The position numbers and the translations under genes are program-made. From Lentilactobacillus senioris DSM 24302 = JCM 17472 (GTDB lineage: Bacteria > Bacillota > Bacilli > Lactobacillales > Lactobacillaceae), in the NCBI RefSeq assembly GCF_001436555.1, contig NZ_AYZR01000004.1, positions 62,001 to 126,000 on the forward strand: a DNA stretch of 64,000 bases, given 5' to 3'. Each line of letters starts with the position of its first letter. The first letter of the stretch is position 1. The notes below the pieces were generated by a model. It worked only from the letters and a program-made list of their open reading frames with translations. It searched no databases and had not been told where the DNA came from. Positions 2-47,476 of this stretch are shown here, piece by piece.

Positions 2-1357
2 ACCATCGGTTCCATGCTATTATTCTATTTAACTACGGTTGATGGAATTTCAGCCGCTGTTGGCGCTACCATTTTCTTAGTTGTTCGTTGGGTTAACGTT
101 TTCTGGGATCCATTTGTTGGAGCCTGGATCGATAAACGCAACCCTAAATCAGGTAAATACCGGCCTTATTTACTTTGGTTTGGAATTCCATTAACTGTTT
201 TATCAGCAATGTTATTCTTACCAATTCCAGCTGTTCACGGTAATGTTTTGTATGCTTTCCTATCTTACTTAGCAACAGCTATGGTTTACTCACTAGTAAA
301 CATCCCTTATGGTTCATTGAATGCATCAATGACTCGGGATAGTGATGAAATTTCTAGTTTGACTACTGTTCGGATGACTGAAGCCAATATTGGTAACTTA
401 ATGGTTTATACTTTCTTACCACTATTTATTCAATTAGTTTCACCTGACAAAGTCACTAAAGATATCGGTTTGTTCGGAATTCACTTAGACCTTGGTAATT
501 ATGCTTCTCGTGCTGCCGGTCCCGCCTACTTTAAAGTTATGAGTATCTACATGATTATCGGTTTCTGTTTATTAATGCTTACTTACTTCGGCGTTAAAGA
601 ACGAGTAGTTGCTACTAAAGAAGAAACTGAAAACGTTAAATACTCTGATTTAATCACAGAATTTAAGCGTAACCGTCCTCTTCGAATTTTAGGTTTGTTC
701 TTCTTAATTGGATTTACCTTTATGTTCTTTGGTAACACCGTTTGGGCATTCTACACCCAATACAACATTGGCCATGCCGAATGGATGGGTTCAATTGGTT
801 TAATTGGTTCTATTCCTGGTATCTTCTTAGTTTTCTTATGGCCTAAACTTAAAAAAGTTTTCGGTAAAAAAGGCTTCTTCTACTTCTTCTTGGCTCTCTT
901 CATCGTTGGTAGTTTAATTCTTTGGGTTTGGAGTTTCCCACAATTTAAGAACTCTATTGCTTTAGGTTACATTGGTCGTTTCATTCAACAATGGGGGATC
1001 ACTTCTGCTACTGGTTACATGTGGTCAATGGTTCCTGAAGTTGTTACTTACGGCGAATACACCTCTCACCGTCGTTCAGCTGCCTTAATTAACTCCTTAA
1101 TGGGCTTATTCTTCAAGATTGGTTTAGCACTTGGTGGAATTATCCCCGGTTATATCAATGCTGCAGTTGGTTTCGACGGTAACAAAGCAACCCAAAGTGC
1201 CGGTGCTTTAAACGGGATCGTTATTTCCATGATCTGGTTACCAATTGCATTAGCATTAGTTGGCATGTGGGTAATGAGTCGTTACCCATTAACAGATGCT
1301 GACGTTAATAAAATGAACCATGAACTAGCAGCTCAACGGCAAAAACAAAATCTTTAA
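2..1357 (+). CDS. GPH-family sugar:cation symporter (xyloside transporter), 5' end outside window
   Basis: This is a membrane symporter of the glycoside-pentoside-hexuronide (GPH) family, which imports xylosides or related oligosaccharides with a cation. The reading frame is already open at base 2, where the codons give T-I-G-S before the first Met at base 14. The N-terminus therefore lies upstream of the window and the Met at 14 is internal. The visible part has the family hallmark of about twelve hydrophobic segments. It also has the loop after the second segment, DPFVGAWIDKRNPKSGKYRP, which is the GPH form of the MFS loop 2-3 motif. The stop is 26 bases before the GH43 xylosidase, so the two form an operon, and this supports a xyloside substrate (XynT/XylP type). 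The exact substrate is inferred from the neighbour. Confidence 0.9.
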   Translation, partial: TIGSMLLFYLTTVDGISAAVGATIFLVVRWVNVFWDPFVGAWIDKRNPKSGKYRPYLLWFGIPLTVLSAMLFLPIPAVHGNVLYAFLSYLATAMVYSLVNIPYGSLNASMTRDSDEISSLTTVRMTEANIGNLMVYTFLPLFIQLVSPDKVTKDIGLFGIHLDLGNYASRAAGPAYFKVMSIYMIIGFCLLMLTYFGVKERVVATKEETENVKYSDLITEFKRNRPLRILGLFFLIGFTFMFFGNTVWAFYTQYNIGHAEWMGSIGLIGSIPGIFLVFLWPKLKKVFGKKGFFYFFLALFIVGSLILWVWSFPQFKNSIALGYIGRFIQQWGITSATGYMWSMVPEVVTYGEYTSHRRSAALINSLMGLFFKIGLALGGIIPGYINAAVGFDGNKATQSAGALNGIVISMIWLPIALALVGMWVMSRYPLTDADVNKMNHELAAQRQKQNL

Positions 1358-33503: not shown

Positions 33504-35060
33504 TTACCATTTAACTTGAAAATTTTCGGGTTGGGTGGCCGTCACGGGGTTGTTTTGTTCAAAATAATCGGTAATTAGTTCGGTCATATCCAGATTCACT
33601 TCTTTGACTACTTTGGCGGTGCCAAACATGTCATATTCACCGCCACCATTACCACGATATTGGTTCATCGCTACTTGCAAGGTTTGCTCTGCCGTTACCG
33701 TTTCGCCATGGTACTTAAGCTTGGTTACCCTGGAACCAACCGGTTGGCGCAAATCAAATTCATAATCAATGCCACTATAAAAATCGTAATTATAATACTG
33801 CACTTTCGGTTTCACAAACGCCGCTGCCACCACTACTTGGCCCGCTTGAACCTCAAAAAAACTAGCACACCGTTCCAGAGCCGCTTTCAAATCCGCTCCG
33901 GTAATCCGTTCCACGACTAACGTATTGGGATAACCATAACTGTTTAAGACTTGGCGGATGGTAACTTCCGCTTCATAGCCTCGGACTTCGTTGTTAAACA
34001 ACGCCGTAGCTGCAATGTCGACCCCCGTGGCTGCCATTTCAACTTGATTAATAAACTGTAAATATGGATGCCCATGTAACCTAGCCTGCATTGGATCAAC
34101 AATCGCCATTGCCGTCCCATTAACTTGTCCTAGTGGTTGATCCAACCACGTCTGAACCTTTTGTTCTAGCTTGGCGGTCATTTGCGTTAACGTCGAATCC
34201 GGTATCATTTCTTCAGTCGCTAGTAACGTGGCAGTTGAGCCTTGCACTTCATTATTCTTCTCCAGCTGAAGTTCAATACAGCCGACAAATCGGCCCCGTT
34301 CTCCTGGCTGGGTAACTGGCAAGCCGTTGTAAACTGCGGCGATTTGACGGTGTTGATGACCGGTAATCAATGCATCGATTCCAGGCACTTGGGTCAAAAT
34401 CCGGTAGCCTTCATCTTCAGCCGTGATTTTTTCACTGGGTAGCCCCGTTTTTAGATCACTCTCCAGCCCGCCATGGTAGGCCACCACGACCACATCTGCC
34501 ATTTCACGTAATCGCGGCACCCACAGTTTGGCAGTTTCCAGTGCTGACTTAAAATTTAATCCGGTTAGATGGTTAGCCTGTTCCCAAACGGGAATATAGG
34601 CAGTTGTTAGCCCTAAAATGGCAACCTTAATGCCCTTTTGTTTCACAATCGTGTAAGGGGCGTCCACAATTTGTTGTTGCCGTCCACCAGCAATGTTGGC
34701 ACCTAGCAGCGGATAGTTACGATAGTGTTCAGCCGCTCTTAAATAATCCAGGCCGTAGTTAAACTCATGATTACCTAATACACCCGCGTCATAGCCGATG
34801 TTACTAGTAATTTGGCTAAAGATGCCTTGCTGTTTGGCCGTGGTTTGTTTAGCCACATAACTAGTTAACGGTGAGCCTTGAATCCAATCACCATTTTCCA
34901 CGGCAATCACGATTTCATCTGCGGCGGCTGCTTGCTTTTGTTGCTTAATCAAAGTGGCGGCCTTTAACATCCCGTAATCAGCAATGTTATTAGGCGTGCT
35001 GTAATCCGTGGGATAAACGTAACCATGGACATCACTAGTCGATAAAATTTTAACTTTCAT
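33504..35060 (-). CDS. 5'-nucleotidase / 2',3'-cyclic-nucleotide phosphodiesterase family metallophosphatase
   Basis: This 518-residue enzyme has an N-terminal calcineurin-type dimetal phosphoesterase domain (about 1-290) and a C-terminal 5'-nucleotidase domain (about 310-500). Motifs are STSDVHGYV (metal ligands Asp and His), VENGDWIQGS, LGNHEFNYG (the family GNHE motif) and ITGHQHR. There is no signal peptide or sorting signal, so it should act in the cytoplasm, unlike the secreted wall-bound members. It is the last gene of the phn-type operon, 2 bases after the second permease gene. Its presence suggests that the transported compound or its product is a nucleotide or nucleotide-like phosphoester; this is an inference. 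Confidence 0.9.
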   Translation of the reverse strand: MKVKILSTSDVHGYVYPTDYSTPNNIADYGMLKAATLIKQQKQAAAADEIVIAVENGDWIQGSPLTSYVAKQTTAKQQGIFSQITSNIGYDAGVLGNHEFNYGLDYLRAAEHYRNYPLLGANIAGGRQQQIVDAPYTIVKQKGIKVAILGLTTAYIPVWEQANHLTGLNFKSALETAKLWVPRLREMADVVVVAYHGGLESDLKTGLPSEKITAEDEGYRILTQVPGIDALITGHQHRQIAAVYNGLPVTQPGERGRFVGCIELQLEKNNEVQGSTATLLATEEMIPDSTLTQMTAKLEQKVQTWLDQPLGQVNGTAMAIVDPMQARLHGHPYLQFINQVEMAATGVDIAATALFNNEVRGYEAEVTIRQVLNSYGYPNTLVVERITGADLKAALERCASFFEVQAGQVVVAAAFVKPKVQYYNYDFYSGIDYEFDLRQPVGSRVTKLKYHGETVTAEQTLQVAMNQYRGNGGGEYDMFGTAKVVKEVNLDMTELITDYFEQNNPVTATQPENFQVKW

Positions 35061-35062
35061 TA

Positions 35063-35872
35063 TTAAACCAACTTCTTTCGCAACCGGCCAGACAAACTGT
35101 CAATGGCCAGTACCATAATAATAATCCCTAACAAAATGATGCCGACCCGGGGCCAGTTTCGCGTTTGAATGGCAAACAACATGGGGGTCCCGATTCCGCC
35201 GGCGCCTACCATCCCTAAAATGGTAGCTGACCGCACGGCGATTTCAAACCGGTAAAGGGTGTAGGAAATAAATTCTGGCATGATCGTGGGTAACGTCGCC
35301 AGCATAAACACCTGACTAGCATTGCCCCCCACACTAACAATCGCTTCTTCAGCCCCACCATCCATATTTTCGATAGCCTCACTAAATAGCTTCCCTAACA
35401 TCCCCACGGAGTGCACACTAACTGCTAGCACCCCGGCGTAAGAACCCGGGCCCACCGCTTTGATGAACATAATTGCCAATACAATTTCTGGGAAGGTACG
35501 AATCAAAGTGAGCACTAACTTGCCGCTGCCAGAACGGAGATACCATTTTTCAGTTTTGCTTCGGGCCGCCCAAAAGGCAAAGGGCACGCTAATCACTGCT
35601 GAAATAATGGTTCCTAAAAAGGCAATCGCCAGGGTTTGACCAATTAACGAAACCAAATCTTCCCCACTACCGTTGTAAACGTAGGCCCAATCCGGATGAA
35701 AAATACCGTGCAAAATAGATTTGGACACCGGGCCTGCCGAATCCTGAATTCCACTTAATTTTAGCCCCTTTAACGCCCAACCATAAATCACTAAGATAAT
35801 AAACGCCCAAAGTAACCAACCGTAGCGGTCATAGTAGTTTTTTTCTATTTTTAGTTCTGGTGATTTTGTCAT
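35063..35872 (-). CDS. phnE2: Phosphonate-type ABC transporter permease (second)
   Basis: This 269-residue permease of the PhnE family has about six hydrophobic segments. The ABC-contacting EAA-type loop is at about 175-195 (MDGGAEEAIVSVGGNASQVF, then LATLPTIMPEF). The C-terminal AVRSATILGMVGAGGIGTPML is a PhnE signature. It overlaps the stop codon of the first permease gene by one base, a sign of translational coupling. With the first permease it should form a heterodimer served by PhnC. Confidence 0.93.
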   Translation of the reverse strand: MTKSPELKIEKNYYDRYGWLLWAFIILVIYGWALKGLKLSGIQDSAGPVSKSILHGIFHPDWAYVYNGSGEDLVSLIGQTLAIAFLGTIISAVISVPFAFWAARSKTEKWYLRSGSGKLVLTLIRTFPEIVLAIMFIKAVGPGSYAGVLAVSVHSVGMLGKLFSEAIENMDGGAEEAIVSVGGNASQVFMLATLPTIMPEFISYTLYRFEIAVRSATILGMVGAGGIGTPMLFAIQTRNWPRVGIILLGIIIMVLAIDSLSGRLRKKLV

Positions 35873-36669
35873 TAAATTAACCGCTCCCTTAGATAATTAC
35901 TAATTCCGTTAATCACGATAACGACTGCCAACGTCATCAAAATAATAACCGCCGTTTGGCTGTAATTAAATTCATTGAGTGACCGTTGCAGATAAACCCC
36001 AATCCCGCCAGCTCCTAAATAACCTAACACCGTTGAAGCCCGCACGTTAATCTCTAATGTGTATAAAAAGTAACTGATAAATTGGTTCATTACTTGGGGC
36101 ACCACCGCGAAATGAATGATTTGTAATTTCCGCGCGCCTACTGATTCCAACGCTTCAATGGGGCCTTCATCAATCGTTTCGATTACTTCGTAAAACAATT
36201 TAGAAACCATCCCAAACGAGAAAATTGCTAAGGTCACTACCCCAGCGGTGGAACCAATGCCAAAGATGGCCACAAAGATCGCCGCTAACAGTAAGTCTGG
36301 TAAGGTCCGAACTAAATCCAAGAAGAAACGAATTAGTCCGTGCGCCCAGGAGTTTTTAACGATATTACTAGCTGCCAAGAAGGAAAAGGGGATGGCAAAC
36401 AACGTCCCAATCGTGGTCCCCATTACCGCCATTTGGATTGTTTCTAAAATCGGCTGCCAAATAATGGCGATGTAACTCCAATCTGGATGTGACATTCGAA
36501 CTAATAAATCAGTAAATTGATCTAAGTTAGTAAAGAACATGGCAACGTCCACGCCCGCCACCTTGGCAGATAAAATTACTAACCCAATAATGACGACCGT
36601 TACACTAACCGTTTTGACGTGATACTTTTGCCCCCAGGATTGGTGGGGGAGTTTTTTCATGACTTCCAT
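35872..36669 (-). CDS. phnE1: Phosphonate-type ABC transporter permease (first)
   Basis: This is a 265-residue inner membrane permease of the PhnE family. The EAA loop lies around IDEGPIEALESVGARKLQII and the C-terminal signature is NVRASTVLGYLGAGGIGVYL. The ATG at 36669 follows GGAGGACCTCC. It comes 10 bases after phnC. The paired phnE genes are the usual arrangement in Lactobacillaceae for this transporter type. Confidence 0.93.
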   Translation of the reverse strand: MEVMKKLPHQSWGQKYHVKTVSVTVVIIGLVILSAKVAGVDVAMFFTNLDQFTDLLVRMSHPDWSYIAIIWQPILETIQMAVMGTTIGTLFAIPFSFLAASNIVKNSWAHGLIRFFLDLVRTLPDLLLAAIFVAIFGIGSTAGVVTLAIFSFGMVSKLFYEVIETIDEGPIEALESVGARKLQIIHFAVVPQVMNQFISYFLYTLEINVRASTVLGYLGAGGIGVYLQRSLNEFNYSQTAVIILMTLAVVIVINGISNYLRERLI

Positions 36670-36679
36670 GGAGGTCCTC

Positions 36680-37432
36680 CTAAATCGGTTGATAAATGGC
36701 GCTTAAGGCGTCTTCAGTTACCTGGTCAATCGGCTGATCGTAAACTAATTGCCCCCCGCGCATCCCAATAATGCGGTCCGCATACTGTAAAGCTAACGGA
36801 ACCGAATGCAAGTTCACCACCACGGTAATGCCGTCTTCTTCGTTCAATCTTTTCAAGTCGTTCATTACTGCTTGAGTGGTCAACGGATCCAGGGAAGCAA
36901 TTGGTTCGTCGGCCAAAATAATTTTGGGATCTTGCATCAAAGTTCGGGCAATCGCTACCCGTTGTTGTTGGCCCCCGGACAATTCATCAGCCCGCATATA
37001 AATTTTTTCGAGTAAGTTTACCCGGTCTAACGCCACAGCGGCCTGTTGTTTATCGGCTTTACTATACAAGTTCAAGATACTCTTCCAAGTGGGATAGTAG
37101 CTAATTTTACCGGACAAAACGTTGTGTTCCACGCTAGTTCGTTTCACCAAGTTAAAGTTTTGAAATATCATGCCAATCTTGCGGCGAAGTTCTCGCAATG
37201 ACCGTCCTTTAAGGTTTGTTACTTCCACTCCATCAACTAACACCTTGCCAGAACTAGGATTATGCATTTTATTGATGGTTCGCATCAAGGTACTTTTGCC
37301 AGCCCCCGACAATCCGACTACCACCAAAAATTCGCCCGGCTTCACCGTCAAATTAATATCTTTTAAGCCCACCGTGCCGTTATCGTAAATTTTATTGACG
37401 TCTTTAAATTCAATAATTGGTTTTGCATCCAT
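36680..37432 (-). CDS. phnC: Phosphonate-type ABC transporter ATP-binding protein
   Basis: This 250-residue ATPase energises the importer. Walker A is GLSGAGKST (about 39-47), the Q-loop region is [20 protein letters not shown] (a PhnC-type sequence), the signature is [13 protein letters not shown] (about 147-159) and Walker B is IILADEP. It follows phnD after a 98-base gap that contains an intrinsic terminator, so it is expressed at a lower level than the binding protein by read-through. Confidence 0.95.
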
Positions 37433-37530: not shown

Positions 37531-38469
37531 TTATTTATCTAACTTAGTAGCTTCTTTATCGTATTTACGAATGATATCGAAGTTGCTGTCCTTAGAGTCG
37601 ACGTAACCTTCATGACTGTAAACGCTCGAGATGATTTGGTGCCCTTTTTTGGTTTTGGCAATGTCTTTAAACGCTTTGGAGATCTTCTTTTGCCACTTAG
37701 AGCTCATATCACCACGAACCGTAATGGTATCGTTAGGAATTTTGCCCGTGGTATAAATTGGCACTACCTTTTTCATGACGTCTGGTTCATCGCCCTGTAC
37801 TAATAACCGGGCTCCTTGGAAAACAAAGGCTGCATCGGTGTTTTTGTTATAAACCGACAGAACCCCTTGATCGTGACCCTTCACTTGAACGGTCTTAATT
37901 CCGTCTTTGTTAATATTAACCCCGTGGTTTAGCATTTCTACGGCTGGATAAATCCAACCGGCAGTTGAGGTAGTATCCTGGGTTGCAATTGTTTTGCCCT
38001 TTAAATCTTGAATATCTTTAATGCCACTATCCTTCCGGACCAAAATTTGAGAACGATAGTAATCAACTAATTTGCCGGTTGATTGATCGTTAGGTTCCTT
38101 AACCCCGTAACGTTGAGCTTGTAATAAAACCTTGGCATTGTATTGTTTATGTGCCAAAACATAAGCATCAGGTGGGAGATAACCAACATCGACTTTTTTA
38201 GACCCCATAGCTTCTACGATCGTGTTGTAATCCGTAGAAACAGCTACCTTAACGGGAATCCCCAGTTCCTTTTTCAGTAGGCCTTCTAATGGTTTGGCCT
38301 TAGCTTCGATGGTACCAGCATTGGACGAAGGCACGAATTCAACGGTTAACTTCTTAGGAGTATAATCCCCCTTTTTGGCACTAGACTTGCCACAACCCGT
38401 CAAGCCGACAGATAGTAATAGCAAGGAAATAATAGCGACTCCATATTTGGCACGGTGATTAAATCTCAT
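37531..38469 (-). CDS. phnD: Phosphonate-type ABC transporter substrate-binding lipoprotein
   Basis: This is a 312-residue extracellular binding lipoprotein. The Met at 38469 is chosen because GGAGGGACCACTTG precedes it; the reading frame extends 17 codons further but without a ribosome binding site. The signal peptide ends in the lipobox LTGC with Cys26 as lipidated residue. The mature part has the PhnD/PhnS family marks LTVEFVPSSNAGTIEAKAKP near its start and MGSKKVDVGYLPPDAYVLA. Phosphonate, phosphite or phosphate esters are classical ligands of the family. The regulatory region suggests a nucleotide-linked compound instead. Confidence 0.9.
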   Translation of the reverse strand: MRFNHRAKYGVAIISLLLLSVGLTGCGKSSAKKGDYTPKKLTVEFVPSSNAGTIEAKAKPLEGLLKKELGIPVKVAVSTDYNTIVEAMGSKKVDVGYLPPDAYVLAHKQYNAKVLLQAQRYGVKEPNDQSTGKLVDYYRSQILVRKDSGIKDIQDLKGKTIATQDTTSTAGWIYPAVEMLNHGVNINKDGIKTVQVKGHDQGVLSVYNKNTDAAFVFQGARLLVQGDEPDVMKKVVPIYTTGKIPNDTITVRGDMSSKWQKKISKAFKDIAKTKKGHQIISSVYSHEGYVDSKDSNFDIIRKYDKEATKLDK

Positions 38470-38507
38470 CAAGTGGTCCCTCCAATAGTGTATTTGATTC
38501 ACATCCC

Positions 38508-38537
38508 ATCCTAACCCCAATAAACGAACTTAGTCAA
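38508..38537 (-). promoter_or_regulatory. Promoter of the phn-type operon
   Basis: On the minus strand TTGACT (38537-38532) is followed after 18 bases by TAGGAT (38513-38508). Transcription would start near 38500, about 30 bases before the phnD ATG. A CGAAC box fills the spacer between the two elements. Confidence 0.55.
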
Positions 38538-38624
38538 TTTATTTTTCGATTCAAGTTCGTGTTTTACCGTTTTAAAGGCTTATATACCGTTTAAATTTAT
38601 TTTTTTGCGTAAAATAACGAACTT
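38524..38624. promoter_or_regulatory. Three ACGAACTT boxes (PurR-box-like operators)
   Basis: The octamer ACGAACTT occurs at 38524-38531 (plus), 38553-38560 (minus) and 38617-38624 (plus). The CGAAC core in an A/T-rich context is the heart of the PurBox recognised by PurR in Lactococcus and Bacillus. The first and second boxes form an inverted pair 21 bases apart, as PurR boxes often do. The first lies between the -35 and -10 elements of the phnD promoter. A first-position A instead of the commoner C weakens the assignment to PurR. Confidence 0.55.
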
Positions 38625-38642
38625 TACTTAAAAACAAGCACT

Positions 38643-38765
38643 AAAAAAGCCTCAGGTCTACAAGAGACAAGAGGCTAGTATTTGGTCCGTTTAATTTACA
38701 GTGGTTTCTTAATTTTGCCACTGGTATTTAAACCTTCAACTTCCTAGCCTCACGGGACTAATTTA
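38643..38765 (-). promoter_or_regulatory. PyrR-type transcription attenuator
   Basis: On the minus strand the sequence AGTCCCGTGAGGCT (38759-38746) matches the PyrR binding-loop consensus ARUCCNGNGAGGYU at every position. Downstream lies a terminator AGCCTC...GAGGCT (38676-38671 with 38653-38648), with an inner GTCT/AGAC stem and a T6 run. The binding loop's GAGGCTAG is exactly complementary to the terminator's left arm CTAGCCTC, giving the alternative antiterminator. The mechanism is that PyrR with UMP favours the terminator. The next gene in this direction is phnD, so the attenuator should feed the phn-nucleotidase operon. Confidence 0.8.
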
Positions 38766-38943
38766 AAGTTACGATATTCAATTGATTAGTTAATTTAACC
38801 TAACACGAAATTTAATTTTTGGGTAGTGTTTTTTCTGATAACCCGATTAATAATTTCGAATCGCTAACCACCACAATCCCATGATAACGGGCATGGTGCG
38901 GTAGGTTTGCGATTGAAGTTTCTGGTTAATAAAGTCAGTTGGC

Positions 38944-41478
38944 TTATTTACTTTCAGCAGCAAATGCATCATTGACTGCTGCTTGTTCCGCTTCAATTAA
39001 CGCCACTCGCCCAACAATGATTCGTTCATCCATCGTGATTTCACGGGTTAATCCTGGAGTGTTGAGTTTAGGGATAAAGAAGTCCTTAAACTCTTGTAAC
39101 CGCGTTGGCGTCTTGAAGATATTGGCAATTGAAGTAATAAAACCAGTAAATTCCATGTCACCACCAACCGTCTTTTGCATCCAACCCCAATCGTTGCGGA
39201 TCCAATCCCAAGCTGCCTGTTGACCAGCATCATTAGCTAAGACCGCTGGGAACCAAGCCCGTAAATCCTGTGGCTTGATGATCGTTGGTTTTTCAAAATC
39301 TTCAATCAACTTAGCCACTTGTTTAGCATCTGGAGTTTCAGCTAAGGCTACTTGTAAATCCGCCTTAAAGCTGGCATCACTAGACTTGCGGTACAAGTCC
39401 ATTAGATGATCAAATAATTTCATACTGTTGTAATGCTTAATTTCATTGCTGATCGTTAAAGCCCGAATTTCTGCCGGCAAATTAATCAAGTCAGCTTGAT
39501 GTTCATTAAATAATTCATGGACTTGGGCAATCATTGCTTTATCCTGCGCATACAAGGCGGCGCTTATAACCGCGGGTCTGATTACTAAATCTTCAGGCGT
39601 ATCGCTATCGCGTTTAGTCAACCCTAACCGTTCCACTTGTCCCTTGCTTAATTGACCTAAGAAGGCTTGTAAATGTTGTTCTTCAGCAGAATCTGGTGTT
39701 ACAAATTTCTTGAGGTCGGTAGTAATTCGGTAAAGAGCGGTAATGACAATTGCCGAATGACTGGCTGCAAATTGTTGTAGTAATGGGATGACTTTTGCAA
39801 AACTGATTTGTTGACCTTCCGCTAATAACCGTAAATCTTGTAAGAACTGTAATTGGGTGATGGCATCAAAGTCAGCCATTTCACTCAATAAGTCGTTCAA
39901 CAAGGTTTCATCATACTTCACAATGAAATGGGAATTATTGCCGACGTTTAATCTAAACGCCTGCCCGGCTTGTTGCCGCAATTCCTGATAGTCACCCAAC
40001 TTAATTTCTTTGCCGGCCATAATGGTTGGCACCACATCATAATTACCGTTCAACGGAATTTGCCAGATACGTCCCTGGTCTTTGCCATCTCCGATAAAGA
40101 ACTGTTGTTGACTTAACGTTAATTGACCGTCAACCACGGAGGCAGATACTACTGGGTAACCAGGTTGTTCTAACCAGGAATTCATAATCATTCCCACGTT
40201 TTGACCGGAAGCTTCTTCTAGCGCTGCCCATAGATCAGCACCGGTAGCATTACCGTAGTGGTGGGCTGCAAAATAGTTCTTTAAGCCAGAACGTAAGGCT
40301 TCATCACCAATTAAGGAACGGACCATTACCAGCATCCGCGAACCCTTAGCGTAAACGATGGCACTGTCAAACAGCGCCGCAATTTCAGCGGGATCTTCAA
40401 CCGCCACGTGAACGGGTTGAACGTCATCAATAGCATCCCGTTGCAAAGCCCGTGGTACTTCTAAAGTTTGGAAAGTTTCCCAAATATGCCAATCTGGTTC
40501 TAAGGCATCTACTGCCACGTATTCCATCATGTTGGCAAAACTTTCGTTCAACCACAGATCATCCCACCACTTCATGGTTACCAAATCCCCGAACCATTGG
40601 TGAGCTAGTTCGTGGGTGATAGTAGTTGCCACGTGTTGTTTGGTAGCCATGGAAGCATTGGCTGGGTCAAATAATAGGTAAGATTCACGGTAGGTGACCA
40701 AACCCCAGTTTTCCATTGCTCCGGCGGAGAAGTCTGGTAAGGCTAACTGCCAAGAATGGGGTAATGGGTATGGAGTTTCGTAGTATTCTTCGTAAAAATC
40801 AATTGAGCGTTTAGCGATGTCTAACGGAAAATCGAGCTCATTAATATCATGGGCTTTGGTGGAGTAGACACCGATTTTAACTCCACTTTTGGTAGTAGTT
40901 TGTTTGCTTTGAAGATCACCGAAGGCAAACGCGATTAAATAAGTCGACATCCGTTTAGTGGTGTCAAAGTAGTGAACGCCATTTTCTTCACGCACTTCCG
41001 GCATGTTAGCCAAAATGGTTTCACCAGGTTTTTCATCAAATTTAATTGCCAAGTCAAAAGTAGCTTTGGCTTCTGGCTCGTCAACGCTAGGAAAGGCTTG
41101 TCGAGCTGCCGTAGTTTCGAACTGGGTCCCAATAATTTCTTGGCGTTTGCCATCTAGTTCATAGTATGAAGGATAAATCCCCATCATCGTGTCAGTTAAG
41201 GGTGCTTCATAGGCAATCATCACGGTTACCTTCCCCGCCCTTGGCAAATTAATGCGCACTAATTCCGCTTCATCATCGGTTTCAAACGTTACTTCTTGGT
41301 TATCCACCATGACGGATTCAATCGTTAAGTATTTTTGGTGCACCGCAATGGTTGGGTCCACCGCGTTCCCAGTAATCGTTGAAGTCCCAGCGATTTTTTT
41401 CTTAGCCCGGTTAATATCGATATTTAAGTCATAATGCTCTGGTTGAAATGTTTCGTATAAATGCCCGTTTTGTGTCAT
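38944..41478 (-). CDS. pepN: Aminopeptidase N (lysyl aminopeptidase)
   Basis: This is an 844-residue cytoplasmic M1 metallopeptidase that removes N-terminal residues from peptides, a standard part of the lactobacillar proteolytic system. Marks are the exopeptidase motif GAMENWG (about 252-258), the zinc site HELAHQWFGDLVTMKWW (about 289-305) with the third ligand in WLNESFA, and the catalytic Tyr region downstream. It has the usual length. It is monocistronic with AGGAGGTTGTC before the ATG. A weak cre-like sequence (TGAAAACGCTATAA on the minus strand) lies about 31-44 bases upstream. Confidence 0.97.
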   Translation of the reverse strand: MTQNGHLYETFQPEHYDLNIDINRAKKKIAGTSTITGNAVDPTIAVHQKYLTIESVMVDNQEVTFETDDEAELVRINLPRAGKVTVMIAYEAPLTDTMMGIYPSYYELDGKRQEIIGTQFETTAARQAFPSVDEPEAKATFDLAIKFDEKPGETILANMPEVREENGVHYFDTTKRMSTYLIAFAFGDLQSKQTTTKSGVKIGVYSTKAHDINELDFPLDIAKRSIDFYEEYYETPYPLPHSWQLALPDFSAGAMENWGLVTYRESYLLFDPANASMATKQHVATTITHELAHQWFGDLVTMKWWDDLWLNESFANMMEYVAVDALEPDWHIWETFQTLEVPRALQRDAIDDVQPVHVAVEDPAEIAALFDSAIVYAKGSRMLVMVRSLIGDEALRSGLKNYFAAHHYGNATGADLWAALEEASGQNVGMIMNSWLEQPGYPVVSASVVDGQLTLSQQQFFIGDGKDQGRIWQIPLNGNYDVVPTIMAGKEIKLGDYQELRQQAGQAFRLNVGNNSHFIVKYDETLLNDLLSEMADFDAITQLQFLQDLRLLAEGQQISFAKVIPLLQQFAASHSAIVITALYRITTDLKKFVTPDSAEEQHLQAFLGQLSKGQVERLGLTKRDSDTPEDLVIRPAVISAALYAQDKAMIAQVHELFNEHQADLINLPAEIRALTISNEIKHYNSMKLFDHLMDLYRKSSDASFKADLQVALAETPDAKQVAKLIEDFEKPTIIKPQDLRAWFPAVLANDAGQQAAWDWIRNDWGWMQKTVGGDMEFTGFITSIANIFKTPTRLQEFKDFFIPKLNTPGLTREITMDERIIVGRVALIEAEQAAVNDAFAAESK

Positions 41479-42694: not shown

Positions 42695-43050
42695 TCTAGA
42701 TTACTCCTTTAATAAGTTAAAAACATTTTAGCACACACATTATTTAAGGAATTGTCAGCTCAGTTCCTTAACTTGGCGCCGTATTTTTAGAGGGAAAATA
42801 AATTTTAAATTAAAAAGGAGGGGGGCAAAAGTCATGAAATGACCTTATAACCACACTCCTCTTTTATTATTACTTGTGCTTATAACATCTTTTGAAATTG
42901 TGATAGGCCATTAACCATTGTTATGTAAGGGTTTCGATTACGCTTTAATTATAAACATATTTCAGTCACATTTTGCCCACATTTATTTGTTATCATCACC
43001 ATAAATTAATAAAGCAATCCCTAACCACTTTCGAAATGGAGGTACTCCTC
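42695..43050 (+). other. Intergenic leader region upstream of the pilus operon
   Basis: This 356-base stretch has no gene. It holds a perfect 8-bp hairpin TTAAGGAA/TTCCTTAA (42744-42751 with 42764-42771). A second structured segment, near 42813-42870, has AAAAAGGAG followed by a run of G, an inner GTCAT/ATGAC stem, then CTCC and a T-rich run, so it looks like a weak terminator or attenuator reading towards the pilus genes. A ribosome-binding-like GGAGG before ATGAAATGA gives only a two-codon reading. No convincing -35/-10 pair was found, though ATTATAAACAT near 42950 could serve as a -10 region. Confidence 0.4.
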
Positions 43051-45969
43051 ATGAAAAAATGGCTCCGAATTGTGTTTTTTTTAAGTTTTTTGGTCATTGC
43101 GGCACCGTTTCCGCTAGTAATTATTCAAGCTCAGGAACGTGGCCCAACTATCAAAAATGCGACTGTTGAAAAGATAAGTGACTCAAAATCAGATCAAGCA
43201 AAGTTATCAATAATCTTAGACCTTGATGCAGACGAAGAGGTCAATTTAGAGTTGGCTGATAATGAACAAGCTAATTTTGATGACGAGTCAGAAATAAAGA
43301 TTGATGAAAAACAAATTAAGGCTGACCTTGATAAGGATAACCAAGAACGACTAATGGTGGAAAATATAACTTCAAAAGCTCAAACCGTAACATTAGAAGT
43401 TCCTCTAGCAATCAATTATCAAACTACTGCCGACAAATTAAAGCTCCAACTATTATTGAATCATGATCAGGAAAAATACGACATTCCTGAATTTAACTTG
43501 AGTAACAATAATCAAGAATCAAAAATTGCAGATCCAAATTCTAGTTCTGTGTTTGAAGAACAGTCCTCAAACACTTCTACTTCAAAAGAAGTTACTAAAG
43601 AAGAACCTACCAACACCAACAAAAAGGTGGCAAGTAAGGCATCTCAAAAACAAGTAACTGCCAGACAAGTTAAGAAACAAGCGGAAAGTAGCTCTACCAA
43701 AGCAGAAGCTACAGAGGAAGCAGATGATGAAGATGGTGAGGAGCAGAAGACTATAAAGCCACAAGCAATCACACCTTCTGAAACAGTAAAAGTTCCTGAT
43801 GATAAACTGGATGTTTATCGAACTCAAGTTTCTGCTGATAGTTGGTCAAGCAAATTGAGTATTGATACAAAAAATATCCCAGGATCTGTTATTTACGGCG
43901 ACAAAACAAATTTAGACGGTGGCTATTGGAATGATGCATCTTATGAAAATGACTACTATAAGTCATATAAAACATATGTTAAAGATCCTAGTAATCCTAA
44001 CGATACCATGCAGTCTAAAGCCTATGCTGTAAAGCTTCCGACGAATCAAAGTAATGCATCATTCTACGTTAAATACGATAACGTTGGTGTTTACTACGAA
44101 GATAATGCTGAAGAAACGCTAGCTCAGCAAATGGGAGCTATCATAAAAATCTCCAATATTAAATATAGTAGTAAGCAACCTACCGGAACTTCAAATAAAT
44201 ATATCGATTTTTCTAATAACTTTTATTCCGGATTAGTTTACAACAATATTGAAAGTTTCGATATCGATATTACTTTTACTACTGCCGATGGCACAAAAGC
44301 ACTATCTGTAAGTCCTGGCACAGACAGTAATAAATCATTTATTACCTTTGGATCTCTTAATGGAAATTCCAATGGTAATGAATGGGCTGGTACTAACACT
44401 GTAGATGAAAATGGCAATTACATTGAAGGAATTCTTTCAGATGAATCTTTAGTTAAAAAAGGGCATGATAGCAATGGTAAATATAATGGCTGGTACGAAG
44501 GTATCGGTGAGGGAGTTTGGGAAAAAGGGCATGACTACTCAGGCGCAAATCAATGGGGTGACTTTTTAGGTTCTACTGACTATGAACAAGGAGCCGTATC
44601 CTTCCCTATTTCTGGTGTAACCCATAAATTCAAACTCCGTAGTGATTATGGTTTTACTTGGCAATCCATTTCTAGTGGCTCTATAAGGCCATTGAAACCA
44701 GAAAAACCAATTAAAACTGTTCACCGAACTGAAAACATTGGTATAGATAATAATAATTTGGATAAAGTAACAATTGATAGAAATGATGAAAACATGAATA
44801 GTTTTTACTACACCATTTATCAAAAAACTTACAATATTCCAGATAAATCAATCGCTAAGCCTAACAAAATCATTTTTACTGACACCTTGCCAGAAGGGAT
44901 GAGCGTTACAAGTTCAAATATCAGGCTCTACAATACCGATGGTAATCTCGTAACTGCTACCAAAGGGAATATCAATATTGTAGGTCAATCTATAACTTAC
45001 TCTCTTTCTAACAAAGAAATTGAAGCTTTAGAGTTTAATGGTGGCCACTTCGCCATTCAGATGAAAGTTACGTTCTCAGAAAAATTTATTGGTACATTTA
45101 CTAATAAGGCTAACGTTAAATTTGATTCTGGAGTTGATTATACTTGGGACAATGATACTAACGAGGTAGTTACTAAATTTGTTATTGATACAGACAATCT
45201 CACATTAGTTAAGAAAGGTGAAAATCCCTGGAATCCTGGTCAGTATAACCTTCTTCCAGGCGCCACCTTTAACCTTAAGGAAGAAGGCGCAACTGGAGAT
45301 GGTACTGAATATACTACTGGCGCAGACGGCACAATTAGTTTAATCGACTTGGACCGCTCTAAGAAGTACATTTTAACTGAAAATACTATGAATGGTTACG
45401 ATCCACTAGTTCCCGCTATAACTATTTCATACGATAAAGAAAATAAGAAGTGGACAATTTCTGATAATCCAAAGGCAACTATTTCAGATAAAACTATTAC
45501 GGTTAATAACACCATTACTCGCGGTAGTTACAACTTCCAAAAAATTGATAGCGCATCCAAAAACGGATTAAATGGAGCCAAGTTTGTAGTTAAACACGGT
45601 AACGACTATTTAACCTTTGATGCTAACGGTAAAATGACCGGTACAGTAGCAAGCCAAGATAAAGCTACAGTATTGGAAAGTAAATCTGTTGGTAATACGG
45701 ATGGACTCATTAGTATCAGTGGCTTACCGTATAACACTTATGAATTAATCGAGGTTGAAGCTCCAAACGGTTATTCATTAGATTCAAATCCAACTATATT
45801 CATAGTTAACAAAGATTCAGGAGGTGATGCTCAGATCAAGAAAATCGAAAACACTCATTACAGCTTACCTGTTACGGGGGGATCCGGAATTATCTGGATT
45901 GTCATTATTGGATTAATCTCTATCTCACTGTCTCTCGCCATTCGGCGCACTCACTCAAGAGGAGGATAA
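43051..45969 (+). CDS. LPxTG pilus adhesin/tip protein with Cna_B (SpaA-type) domains
   Basis: This 972-residue surface protein is covalently linked by sortase. The Met at 43051 is chosen because GGAGGTACTCCTC precedes it and a signal peptide follows (about 1-27, KKWLRIVFFLSFLVIAA). A highly acidic, Ser/Thr/Lys-rich linker covers about 130-235. A unique region follows (about 240-590), then a D2-like isopeptide fold (about 597-710, FTDTLPEGMSVTSSNI). Two Cna_B-type domains sit at about 714-820 and 824-930. The sorting signal LPVTG (about 938) is followed by a hydrophobic stretch and the basic tail RRTHSRGG. It is the first gene of the pilus operon and the largest subunit, so it is probably the tip adhesin. 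The ligand is unknown. Confidence 0.9.
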   Translation: MKKWLRIVFFLSFLVIAAPFPLVIIQAQERGPTIKNATVEKISDSKSDQAKLSIILDLDADEEVNLELADNEQANFDDESEIKIDEKQIKADLDKDNQERLMVENITSKAQTVTLEVPLAINYQTTADKLKLQLLLNHDQEKYDIPEFNLSNNNQESKIADPNSSSVFEEQSSNTSTSKEVTKEEPTNTNKKVASKASQKQVTARQVKKQAESSSTKAEATEEADDEDGEEQKTIKPQAITPSETVKVPDDKLDVYRTQVSADSWSSKLSIDTKNIPGSVIYGDKTNLDGGYWNDASYENDYYKSYKTYVKDPSNPNDTMQSKAYAVKLPTNQSNASFYVKYDNVGVYYEDNAEETLAQQMGAIIKISNIKYSSKQPTGTSNKYIDFSNNFYSGLVYNNIESFDIDITFTTADGTKALSVSPGTDSNKSFITFGSLNGNSNGNEWAGTNTVDENGNYIEGILSDESLVKKGHDSNGKYNGWYEGIGEGVWEKGHDYSGANQWGDFLGSTDYEQGAVSFPISGVTHKFKLRSDYGFTWQSISSGSIRPLKPEKPIKTVHRTENIGIDNNNLDKVTIDRNDENMNSFYYTIYQKTYNIPDKSIAKPNKIIFTDTLPEGMSVTSSNIRLYNTDGNLVTATKGNINIVGQSITYSLSNKEIEALEFNGGHFAIQMKVTFSEKFIGTFTNKANVKFDSGVDYTWDNDTNEVVTKFVIDTDNLTLVKKGENPWNPGQYNLLPGATFNLKEEGATGDGTEYTTGADGTISLIDLDRSKKYILTENTMNGYDPLVPAITISYDKENKKWTISDNPKATISDKTITVNNTITRGSYNFQKIDSASKNGLNGAKFVVKHGNDYLTFDANGKMTGTVASQDKATVLESKSVGNTDGLISISGLPYNTYELIEVEAPNGYSLDSNPTIFIVNKDSGGDAQIKKIENTHYSLPVTGGSGIIWIVIIGLISISLSLAIRRTHSRGG

Positions 45970-45973
45970 GACC

Positions 45974-47476
45974 ATGAAATTCAAAAAAATACTACGGACG
46001 TTAGCAGTCACCGCCCTGATGTTTGTCGGTGGATCTGCAATTAACGCAAGCGCAGAGGTTAAAAGTACTCCAGCACCAGATGAAAACGTAAATATCCAGT
46101 TGCACAAGATGTTTAACACCGACTCAAGTAAAACTATTACCAATACTGGTAGCGAGTTAACTGGTGAAGCTTTAAACGGGATGACACCATACGATGCTAC
46201 TAAAAACGGTAATGTTGAATTTACAATCTTCAAAGTTGGTAAAGGTTTATTAGATCCAGATAACATGACAGAAGCGGAATATGCTACAGCTCGTGATGCT
46301 TTAATTTCTCAAATCAAAAAAGGAGCAACCACCCCTTCAGAGATTATAGACAATCAAAATGATTTCATTGAGACTAATACTGCAAATAACAACTTAACTA
46401 ACTCAAAAGCTCTAACATTACAAGATAGTTCAGGGATTCTTGAATTTAATAACATCACCAACAATGGAACTTACTTGATTTTAGAAACTAAGGCAGCTAA
46501 CTTAACAGATATCACTTCAATCTCTGCCCCATTAATTTTTAACTTACCAATCACTGGTGTGAGCGGTACTGCTCACCTATATGCTAAGAACCTGTTCCCT
46601 AAAGACACCACAACTCAATTAACTAAAAAAGGAATTGACCCATTAGCTCCAACCAACATTACAAACTTATTAGAGCTTGAAAATGTTGAGTTTACTATTA
46701 CAAATAGCAGTGGTTACAATAAAAAAGTAACTACAGATGCCAATGGTAATATCACTTTTGGTAACTTGGCTCCAGGCGAATACACCATAACAGAAACTTC
46801 CATTTCATCTATTCCTTGGTACCAACAAATGAAAGCTGAAAATCCAATTTCTATGAATTTTACTGTAGCTGAAGATGGTACCATTACTACTAGTCAAAAA
46901 AATAACGATTACTTCATTATTACTAAAGATAAAAGTGGAAACGTTACTGGTATCGAGGTTAAAAACTACCTAATTACAGGTGGCGCTGACTTTATCAAAG
47001 TGGATGCAGATGAAAATACTAAATTACTAGAAGGTGCTAAATTTATCGTTAAGAAAGAAAGTTTTGACGAAAGTGGAAACCCAACCACAGAATACGCTAA
47101 ATTTAATAACTCTTACGAATTTACTGGCTGGGGAACTATAGATGAAGCCAAAGCATCTACACAATTAGTATCAAAAGATGATGGAACATTCGGCTTTACT
47201 GGTATTCCTTACGTTTATGACAAACGCAACGATGCTGAAGGAAAAGTAACTAAGTATTCCTTAGTTGAAACCCAAGCACCATCAGGCTATGCAAAATTAG
47301 CTGCTAACGACTCACAACTTAACTTTGAAATGGGTTCCAAAGACCAACTCATTAAAAACAAACGCTACTCACTTCCTATCACCGGTGGCATGGGTATCTG
47401 GCTCTTCGTTATCGCTGGTTTAGCATTAATGGGTGGTTCAGGTTACCTTTACTACAAGAAGCAACGCAACGTATAA
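45974..47476 (+). CDS. Major (backbone) pilin, SpaA type, LPITG anchored
   Basis: This 500-residue pilin is the likely shaft subunit polymerised by the class C sortase. A signal peptide (about 1-27) ends near NASA. The pilin-motif region is HLYAKNLFPKDTTT (about 200-213); its Lys would join the Thr of the next subunit's sorting signal. Two Cna_B domains follow (about 215-320 and 335-455). The second contains an E-box-like LVETQAPSGYAKL (about 428-440) with the Glu needed for the internal isopeptide bond. LPITG (about 466-470), a membrane segment and KKQRNV end the chain. It starts 4 bases after the adhesin gene stop; GAGGAGGATAAGACC supplies the ribosome binding site. Confidence 0.92.
   Translation: MKFKKILRTLAVTALMFVGGSAINASAEVKSTPAPDENVNIQLHKMFNTDSSKTITNTGSELTGEALNGMTPYDATKNGNVEFTIFKVGKGLLDPDNMTEAEYATARDALISQIKKGATTPSEIIDNQNDFIETNTANNNLTNSKALTLQDSSGILEFNNITNNGTYLILETKAANLTDITSISAPLIFNLPITGVSGTAHLYAKNLFPKDTTTQLTKKGIDPLAPTNITNLLELENVEFTITNSSGYNKKVTTDANGNITFGNLAPGEYTITETSISSIPWYQQMKAENPISMNFTVAEDGTITTSQKNNDYFIITKDKSGNVTGIEVKNYLITGGADFIKVDADENTKLLEGAKFIVKKESFDESGNPTTEYAKFNNSYEFTGWGTIDEAKASTQLVSKDDGTFGFTGIPYVYDKRNDAEGKVTKYSLVETQAPSGYAKLAANDSQLNFEMGSKDQLIKNKRYSLPITGGMGIWLFVIAGLALMGGSGYLYYKKQRNV

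Follow-up and report, generated by a model that had tools for sequence, protein, structure and literature searches.

A phn-type transporter operon in Lentilactobacillus senioris is probably a nucleotide-salvage importer under PurR-type and PyrR-type controls

The phnD-phnC-phnE1-phnE2-nucleotidase operon of Lentilactobacillus senioris is probably a nucleotide-salvage importer that is placed under two nucleotide controls in series, one of the PurR and one of the PyrR type. It lies in a 64,000-nucleotide stretch of strain DSM 24302 = JCM 17472 (the window). The initial annotation had proposed nucleotide salvage instead of phosphonate use, and membership of the operon in nucleotide salvage is now well supported by the two nucleotide controls, by the nucleotidase gene and by the absence of PhnJ and phosphonatase matches in the genomes that carry the operon. 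As the importer carries switches for pyrimidine as well as purine shortage, it probably brings in nucleotide-type nutrients and not phosphonates. A more specific proposal, which we put forward tentatively, is that the phn-nucleotidase operon of Lactobacillaceae imports intact nucleotides (e.g., 3'- or 2',3'-cyclic nucleotides released when RNA is degraded), and that it is purine-wired family-wide and became pyrimidine-wired by capture of a PyrR attenuator in a pyrB-less lineage.

The operon and its leader

Comparison between genomes was used to establish the elements described here, their conservation, their distribution and their gene context. The source genome (1.57 Mb) belongs to a set of 24 Lentilactobacillus genomes, three of which carry phnD. 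Two of the carriers (G000 and G019, the latter being L. senioris YQ005) are probably one species, and the three together probably represent two species. PhnD of the window is 99% identical to its counterpart in YQ005 and 90% identical to that in L. kribbianus. The genes of the operon are as follows:

37531..38469, minus strand: phnD, substrate-binding protein (TIGR01098, 244 bits, over cut-off)
36680..37432, minus strand: phnC, ATPase (TIGR02315, 343.6 bits, over cut-off)
35872..36669, minus strand: phnE1, permease (TIGR01097, 293.7 bits, over cut-off)
35063..35872, minus strand: phnE2, permease (TIGR01097, 252.3 bits, over cut-off)
33504..35060, minus strand: 5'-nucleotidase / cyclic-nucleotide phosphodiesterase family enzyme, probably cytosolic (PF02872 and PF00149, over cut-off)

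Elsewhere in the window (42973-47476, plus strand), two neighbouring proteins have SpaA-type pilin domains and LPxTG-like ends, possibly forming a pilus cluster.

The gap between pepN (end, 38944) and phnD (start, 38469) contains, on the minus strand, a PyrR attenuator followed by three CGAAC boxes and a promoter. The parts of the attenuator are:

38640..38773, minus strand: PyrR attenuator (PyrR-binding hairpin, antiterminator and terminator), recognised from RF00515, folding and conservation in L. kribbianus
38738..38772, minus strand: PyrR-binding hairpin (anti-antiterminator), 33/35 identical to L. kribbianus
38759-38746, minus strand: PyrR binding loop AGTCCCGTGAGGCT, within this hairpin
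38744..38751, minus strand: GAGGCTAG, antiterminator 5' arm, paired in the minimum-energy fold
38671..38678, minus strand: CTAGCCTC, antiterminator 3' arm, including AGCCTC (38676-38671), the left arm of the terminator
38643..38653, minus strand: GAGGCTTTTTT, right terminator arm GAGGCT (38653-38648) and T run (38648-38643), 11/11 identical in L. kribbianus

The attenuator (38773-38640) matched RF00515 with 49.8 bits (E 6.8e-6 in a search of 551 bases and 4.7e-6 in a search of the whole genome). This value falls just below the gathering score of the model (54), and a default Rfam scan of the window is therefore empty at this site. The score is ordinary for the genus, since the 60 matches detected at E <= 0.01 in the 24 genomes range from 33 to 61 bits and only 17 of them reach 54, the other 43 lying below. 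The antiterminator and the terminator with its T run are mutually exclusive, and the 126-nt attenuator RNA adopted the antiterminator fold at -32.2 kcal/mol (z -2.23; 6 of 200 shuffled sequences were equally good). The 52-nt terminator piece alone gave -13.8 kcal/mol (10/200) and the PyrR hairpin alone -8.1 kcal/mol (17/200); taken alone, the folding energies of the attenuator RNA are only moderately unusual. In the minus-strand folding and the Rfam comparison that had been suggested as a check, the unit matches RF00515 below the gathering score, and hairpin, antiterminator and terminator can all form. The segment beside the PyrR loop that was said to complement the left arm of a T-tailed terminator can indeed be traced to GAGGCTAG, which can pair with CTAGCCTC; ACTAGCCTC of the latter is identical in L. 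kribbianus.

The loop had also been described as fitting the PyrR consensus everywhere. This is correct only for a looser consensus, and CCCGTGAG is a common loop form among the other PyrR elements of the genus, but the B. subtilis consensus ARUCCAGAGAGGYU, as given in the consulted part of PMC7430163, differs from the window loop at two positions (A to C and A to U).

Distribution and conservation of the PyrR element

Both regulators that the initial annotation had asked for are encoded in the source genome. There is one pyrR gene (245.8 bits; cut-off, 138), located in pyrR-carA-carB, whose product aligns closely with solved PyrR proteins, and PurR is present with 349.7 bits (cut-off, 258.7). 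Two other strong PyrR elements in this genome precede a uracil-permease-type gene and a nucleoside deoxyribosyltransferase gene. Sorted by short downstream peptide motifs, with one member per class confirmed by family search, the targets of the 60 elements of the genus were pyrP (20), pyrB (17), NCS1 permease (14), phnD (3) and nucleoside deoxyribosyltransferase (2), with 4 unassigned. Thus, phn is the only assigned target outside the pyrimidine and nucleobase genes.

An element is located 170-185 bp upstream of phnD in all three carriers (49.8, 41.8 and 55.6 bits), so that in this set, probably of two species, we found no close relative that has phnD and lacks the PyrR loop. Outside this group, a search with a hairpin pattern over 80 phnD loci (kept from 153 found) detected no PyrR hairpin ahead of the gene in the remaining 78; L058 and L074 have less than 170 bp of upstream DNA and are uninformative. 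The pattern matches 60/60 genus elements but was fitted on them, and its sensitivity elsewhere is not independent. It replaced a strict loop pattern, AGTCCN(1-3)GAGGCT, which proved too narrow for the phnD upstream regions as it missed most genus elements. Among the phnD loci surveyed, the PyrR-phn arrangement, as recognised by these patterns, was found only in the senioris/kribbianus group.

Several other PyrR-related signals were seen. A weak PyrR-like leader (23.7 bits) precedes pyrF-pyrE-pyrD in the source genome (L165, 6696-6817); in its loop, GGTTCAGAGAAGCC, the loop-closing C-G is replaced by U-A on both sides, with the hairpin kept and two usually conserved letters different. Weak RF00515 matches L004 to L008 had no loop and were dropped as PyrR elements. 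In Lapidilactobacillus dextrinicus (locus L068, ~1037-1065, reverse strand), a PyrR hairpin match was located ~5 kb from phnD on the opposite strand. The pyrP gene of the source genome (L001, 193-1474, minus strand) is divided into two overlapping frames of 208 and 234 aa; it is one frame of 426 aa in YQ005, and the split reflects either a frameshift or an error in sequencing.

Alignment of the window with L. kribbianus shows identity at 53 of 55 positions in the functional parts of the PyrR element, compared with 146 of 263 in the remaining, unassigned gap sequence (Fisher p 2.4e-10, with the segments drawn after the alignment was seen). Less of the sequence is kept in the middle hairpin region (28/58 identical) and in the terminator loop (6/17). 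The L. kribbianus terminator piece folded at -16.3 kcal/mol, and none of 200 shuffles was equally good. The gene upstream of the leader is pepN in the window and GH65 (glycosyl hydrolase family 65) in L. kribbianus, while the phn operon and the aldo/keto reductase gene that follows it are the same. Given a different upstream gene and the same operon and downstream gene, the PyrR element most likely belongs to phn; the synteny of the attenuator before phnD, which had been named as a point to check, is kept in two species despite the changed upstream neighbour.

L. senioris YQ005 has a 7-bp deletion (L009, ~5801) at the arm shared by terminator and antiterminator. Its terminator piece gave -8.2 kcal/mol versus -13.8 kcal/mol in the window, and 111 of 200 shuffles were equally good. 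The idea that the deletion removes the arm was dropped after folding, as both structures still form with a G-U pair, the terminator being weaker. Such a change would be compatible with the alternative raised in the initial annotation, a remnant left behind by a lost pyr gene; the attenuator would then have no role in phn, and PurR alone would be the regulator. The location of the attenuator upstream of the PurR-type promoter and the fact that pyrB is missing from the same genomes could be read in the same way. In a crude hairpin comparison, the top individual score came narrowly from the pyrB leaders (18 versus 13-17 for other classes), whereas mean scores showed no preference for pyrB (12.2-12.6; other classes, 8.6-15), and the derivation of the phn leader from a pyrB leader was without clear support. 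Because the element keeps its site ahead of phnD in two species although their upstream genes differ, with its functional parts conserved and a well-folding terminator in L. kribbianus, we regard a remnant as rather improbable and continue with an attenuator that serves phn.

The state of pyrimidine synthesis in the carriers may bear on the origin of this arrangement. A pyrB match over the cut-off was detected in 18 of the 24 genomes, and the three phnD carriers are not among these. The source genome has two weaker matches to the pyrB model, probably other carbamoyltransferases, and retains carAB, pyrD, pyrE and pyrF; with pyrB not over the cut-off, de novo synthesis therefore seems broken at the aspartate step. 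Three genomes (G010, which is partial, G012 and G023) have neither pyrB over the cut-off nor phnD, and absence of pyrB thus does not require phn. Recruitment of the PyrR attenuator to phn would then coincide with pyrB absence in the carrier genomes, an association that, with two carrier species, is suggestive only. It should be noted that the carB-like gene of the source genome (L166, 5237-7741) is short: the product has 834 aa, scores 534 bits (cut-off, 1027) and matches model positions 5-652 of 1052 with its residues 4-644.

PurR-type boxes, promoters and a model of control

The boxes and promoters of the leader are:

38797..38825, minus strand: candidate promoter P1 (TACCCA, 17 nt, extended -10 TGtTAGGTT), weak, the best-scoring candidate in both species
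38617..38624, minus strand: PurBox-like box 1 (AAGTTCGT), 7/10 letters and the core GTTCG kept in L. kribbianus
38553..38560, minus strand: PurBox-like box 2 (ACGAACTT), first half of a PurR-type pair; AACACGAACTT is 11/11 in L. kribbianus
38524..38531, minus strand: PurBox-like box 3 (AAGTTCGT), within the -35/-10 spacer of P2 and completing the pair as its second half, 9/10 in L. kribbianus
38508..38537, minus strand: promoter P2 (TTGACT, 18 nt, TAGGAT), from a consensus scan; L. kribbianus has TTGACT-18-TAAGAT

The three boxes that had been placed between terminator and phnD, one of them inside the -35/-10 spacer, were read again at 38624-38617, 38560-38553 and 38531-38524. The CGAAC pair overlaps the -35 element (TTGACT, 38537-38532) and the spacer of P2, whose -10 element is TAGGAT (38513-38508). 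Box, -35, -10 and ribosome-site letters are identical at 50 of 55 positions between the window and L. kribbianus. The promoter consensus around P2 is no commoner than in shuffles (1 found, 1.6 expected).

A box was defined as CGAAC with two A/T letters, and two of the 80 phnD loci were dropped owing to short upstream DNA. Boxes precede phnD in 48 of 61 Lactobacillaceae loci (expected: 9.4 from shuffles, 7.8 from control stretches), and two or more boxes in 26 of these loci versus 0.8 expected; the species are related, so these counts are not independent, and some regions take in a small amount of coding DNA, as the match start was used. They were also present in 5/5 Enterococcus loci, and absent from 11/11 Staphylococcus/Macrococcus loci and from the one other locus. 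Distances from CGAAC to an inverted GTTCG are most often 29-30 nt (14 of 54 pairs). B. subtilis PurR operators are described, in the part of PMC8789054 consulted, as paired PurBoxes with a 16/17-bp spacer, to which 29/30 nt from start to start is equal if CGAA is centred in a 14-bp box. The window thus shows the PurR-operator geometry near a promoter, with two inverted CGAA boxes and a 16/17-bp spacer; the strict pair occurs in 14 and a looser pair in 25 of the 80 phnD loci.

Purine control, offered in the initial annotation merely as possible, gains considerably from this distribution and from the frequent PurR-operator spacing; judged by sequence comparison, it appears older and is better supported than pyrimidine control. 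Both controls pass the comparative tests. The search for further PurR boxes in the source genome went the other way and revealed no other convincing target with strict patterns (30 of the 49 single-box places were inspected): the pair occurred at 5 places, as did the reversed-pattern control, the 4 places other than phn being inside ORFs, and single boxes were not enriched (49 versus 49 in the control).

The P1 candidate lies 37 nt (window) and 36 nt (L. kribbianus) before the binding loop and was not called by the promoter consensus scan. A terminator scan of 38440-38960, which also missed the attenuator's own terminator, found none ahead of the attenuator, and read-through from the preceding gene is therefore an alternative to P1. 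Because P2 is downstream of the terminator, PyrR is able to act only on transcripts that start further upstream. Thus, of the attenuator control proposed for the operon, an added pyrimidine-sensitive transcription stands, but the attenuator cannot switch the operon off.

From this arrangement we infer regulator binding, the use of P1 and the direction of both responses. In the older layer, PurR would bind the paired CGAAC boxes over P2 and be released by PRPP at purine shortage, as in B. subtilis. In the newer layer, transcripts from the weak P1 and/or read-through would run into the PyrR attenuator. At high UMP, PyrR would hold the anti-antiterminator and upstream transcripts would end before P2, and at low UMP they would continue into phn. 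The two inputs would form an OR gate, in which pyrimidine hunger adds transcripts and purine hunger frees P2, PyrR being unable to silence P2. According to PMC7430163, guanine nucleotides are further ligands of PyrR and counteract its binding to RNA, and PMC3582564 describes a second PyrR in L. plantarum, PyrR2, that answers to inorganic carbon.

The transported compound and known systems

PhnC and both PhnE proteins pass phosphonate-family equivalog cut-offs. PhnD is below that of the PhnD equivalog TIGR03431 (156.5 bits; cut-off, 261.1) and passes only the wider phosphate/phosphite/phosphonate family. Its closest solved relatives by sequence are PtxB, PhnD and HtxB. In a profile alignment with E. 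coli PhnD and PtxB, a tyrosine, the ST(S/A) stretch and a histidine, which we take to be phosphoryl contacts, are kept, with one Ser changed to Ala; this Ala, at position three of the STS stretch, is nearly invariant among 41 aligned relatives. In Ligilactobacillus, phnD is an orphan at L053 and L058, with no phnC/phnE in ~6.0 and 3.8 kb downstream, and L056 is similar, but with only ~0.3 kb of downstream DNA.

The last gene had been read as a 5'-nucleotidase-family enzyme without a signal peptide. PF02872 and PF00149 support the family, and a signal-like N-terminus was absent in all 50 nucleotidase loci scored, while the same measure was signal-like in 70 of 80 PhnD. No NCBIfam model exceeded its cut-off (best, PRK09420, 215.7 of 486), and the nearest solved structures are 3qfk/4q7f. 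The gene was located after phnE2 in 50 of 62 Lactobacillaceae loci and was not found in the other 12 or in 5/5 Enterococcus loci, some loci being short, although enterococci have the boxes. The link between nucleotidase and transporter is thus not universal. In Staphylococcus/Macrococcus, a nucleotidase relative was located upstream in 5 of 12 loci, on the opposite strand in 4 of them.

The solved relatives of PhnD and the equivalog matches of the ATPase and permeases would suit an importer of a simple phosphorus compound (phosphate, phosphite or phosphonate), with nucleotide regulators employed since nucleotide synthesis needs phosphate. We consider this unlikely. PhnJ was detected in 0 of 24 genomes, and five of the 24 had a phosphonatase over the cut-off, the three carriers not being among them, so that neither of the phosphonate-degrading enzymes searched was found in the carriers. 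The score of PhnD itself and the cytosolic-looking nucleotidase in the operon also argue against it, and combined pyrimidine and purine control would be an odd phosphate sensor. A reading in which the ligand, and the target of the nucleotidase, is some other phosphorylated metabolite connected with nucleotide pools (for instance, a phosphorylated cofactor or a sugar phosphate) seems very unlikely: the phosphoryl-site motifs leave the rest of the ligand unfixed and the nucleotidase is below every NCBIfam equivalog cut-off, but the leader shows only nucleotide-type controls.

The ligand had been predicted to be a nucleotide, nucleoside or related phosphoester. A phosphorylated ligand is favoured, and a free nucleoside is less likely, because the phosphoryl-site motifs of PhnD align and the nucleotidase looks cytosolic. 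We infer an intact nucleotide as the favoured ligand: a phosphorylated compound, which is most likely a nucleotide, would be bound by PhnD and taken up intact through the permease, and the cytosolic nucleotidase would remove the phosphate. To our knowledge, direct uptake of intact nucleotides has seldom been documented in bacteria. If the proposal is true, nucleotide nutrition would replace the annotated function, phosphonate uptake, for a transporter family of many lactobacilli and enterococci, and a single purified binding protein would make it possible to test intact nucleotide uptake. The attenuator would also exemplify the recent recruitment of a regulatory RNA to a transporter, here in a lineage without pyrB.

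Among known systems, PhnD, PtxB and HtxB share the sequence family and the aligned ST-x-G/S stretch and GH or HD motif with the window protein, which is unlike them in having Ala as the third residue of the STS stretch. Another parallel is an L. lactis operon with cpdC, which from its name is presumably a cyclic-nucleotide phosphodiesterase gene. This operon, phnB-phnC-llmg_0315-cpdC, combines phn-type transporter genes with cpdC, and a network based on expression and other data connects it with pur genes; unlike in the window, no PyrR attenuator is mentioned in the part of the source consulted (PMC3547956). The window letters flanking the boxes fit the lactococcal AWWWCCGAACWWT quoted in the same source only in part, with A where the lactococcal sequence has its first C. 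The likeness to B. subtilis PurR operators, as far as these are described above, consists of CGAAC with an inverted GTTCG at a spacing equal to 16/17 bp. We recognised no literature linking PyrR with phn among the titles and abstract beginnings searched, and the word phosphonate is absent from the main texts of PMC3616900, PMC3766115 and PMC10886434. Like the B. subtilis pyr attenuators (RF00515), the window element has a binding hairpin, an antiterminator and a T-tailed terminator in the same order, and PyrR is encoded; unlike them, it has a loop departing from their consensus at two positions and precedes an ABC importer operon, upstream of a second, PurR-type promoter. Thus, the elements are of known kinds, and their combination before a phn operon is new as far as the literature was searched.
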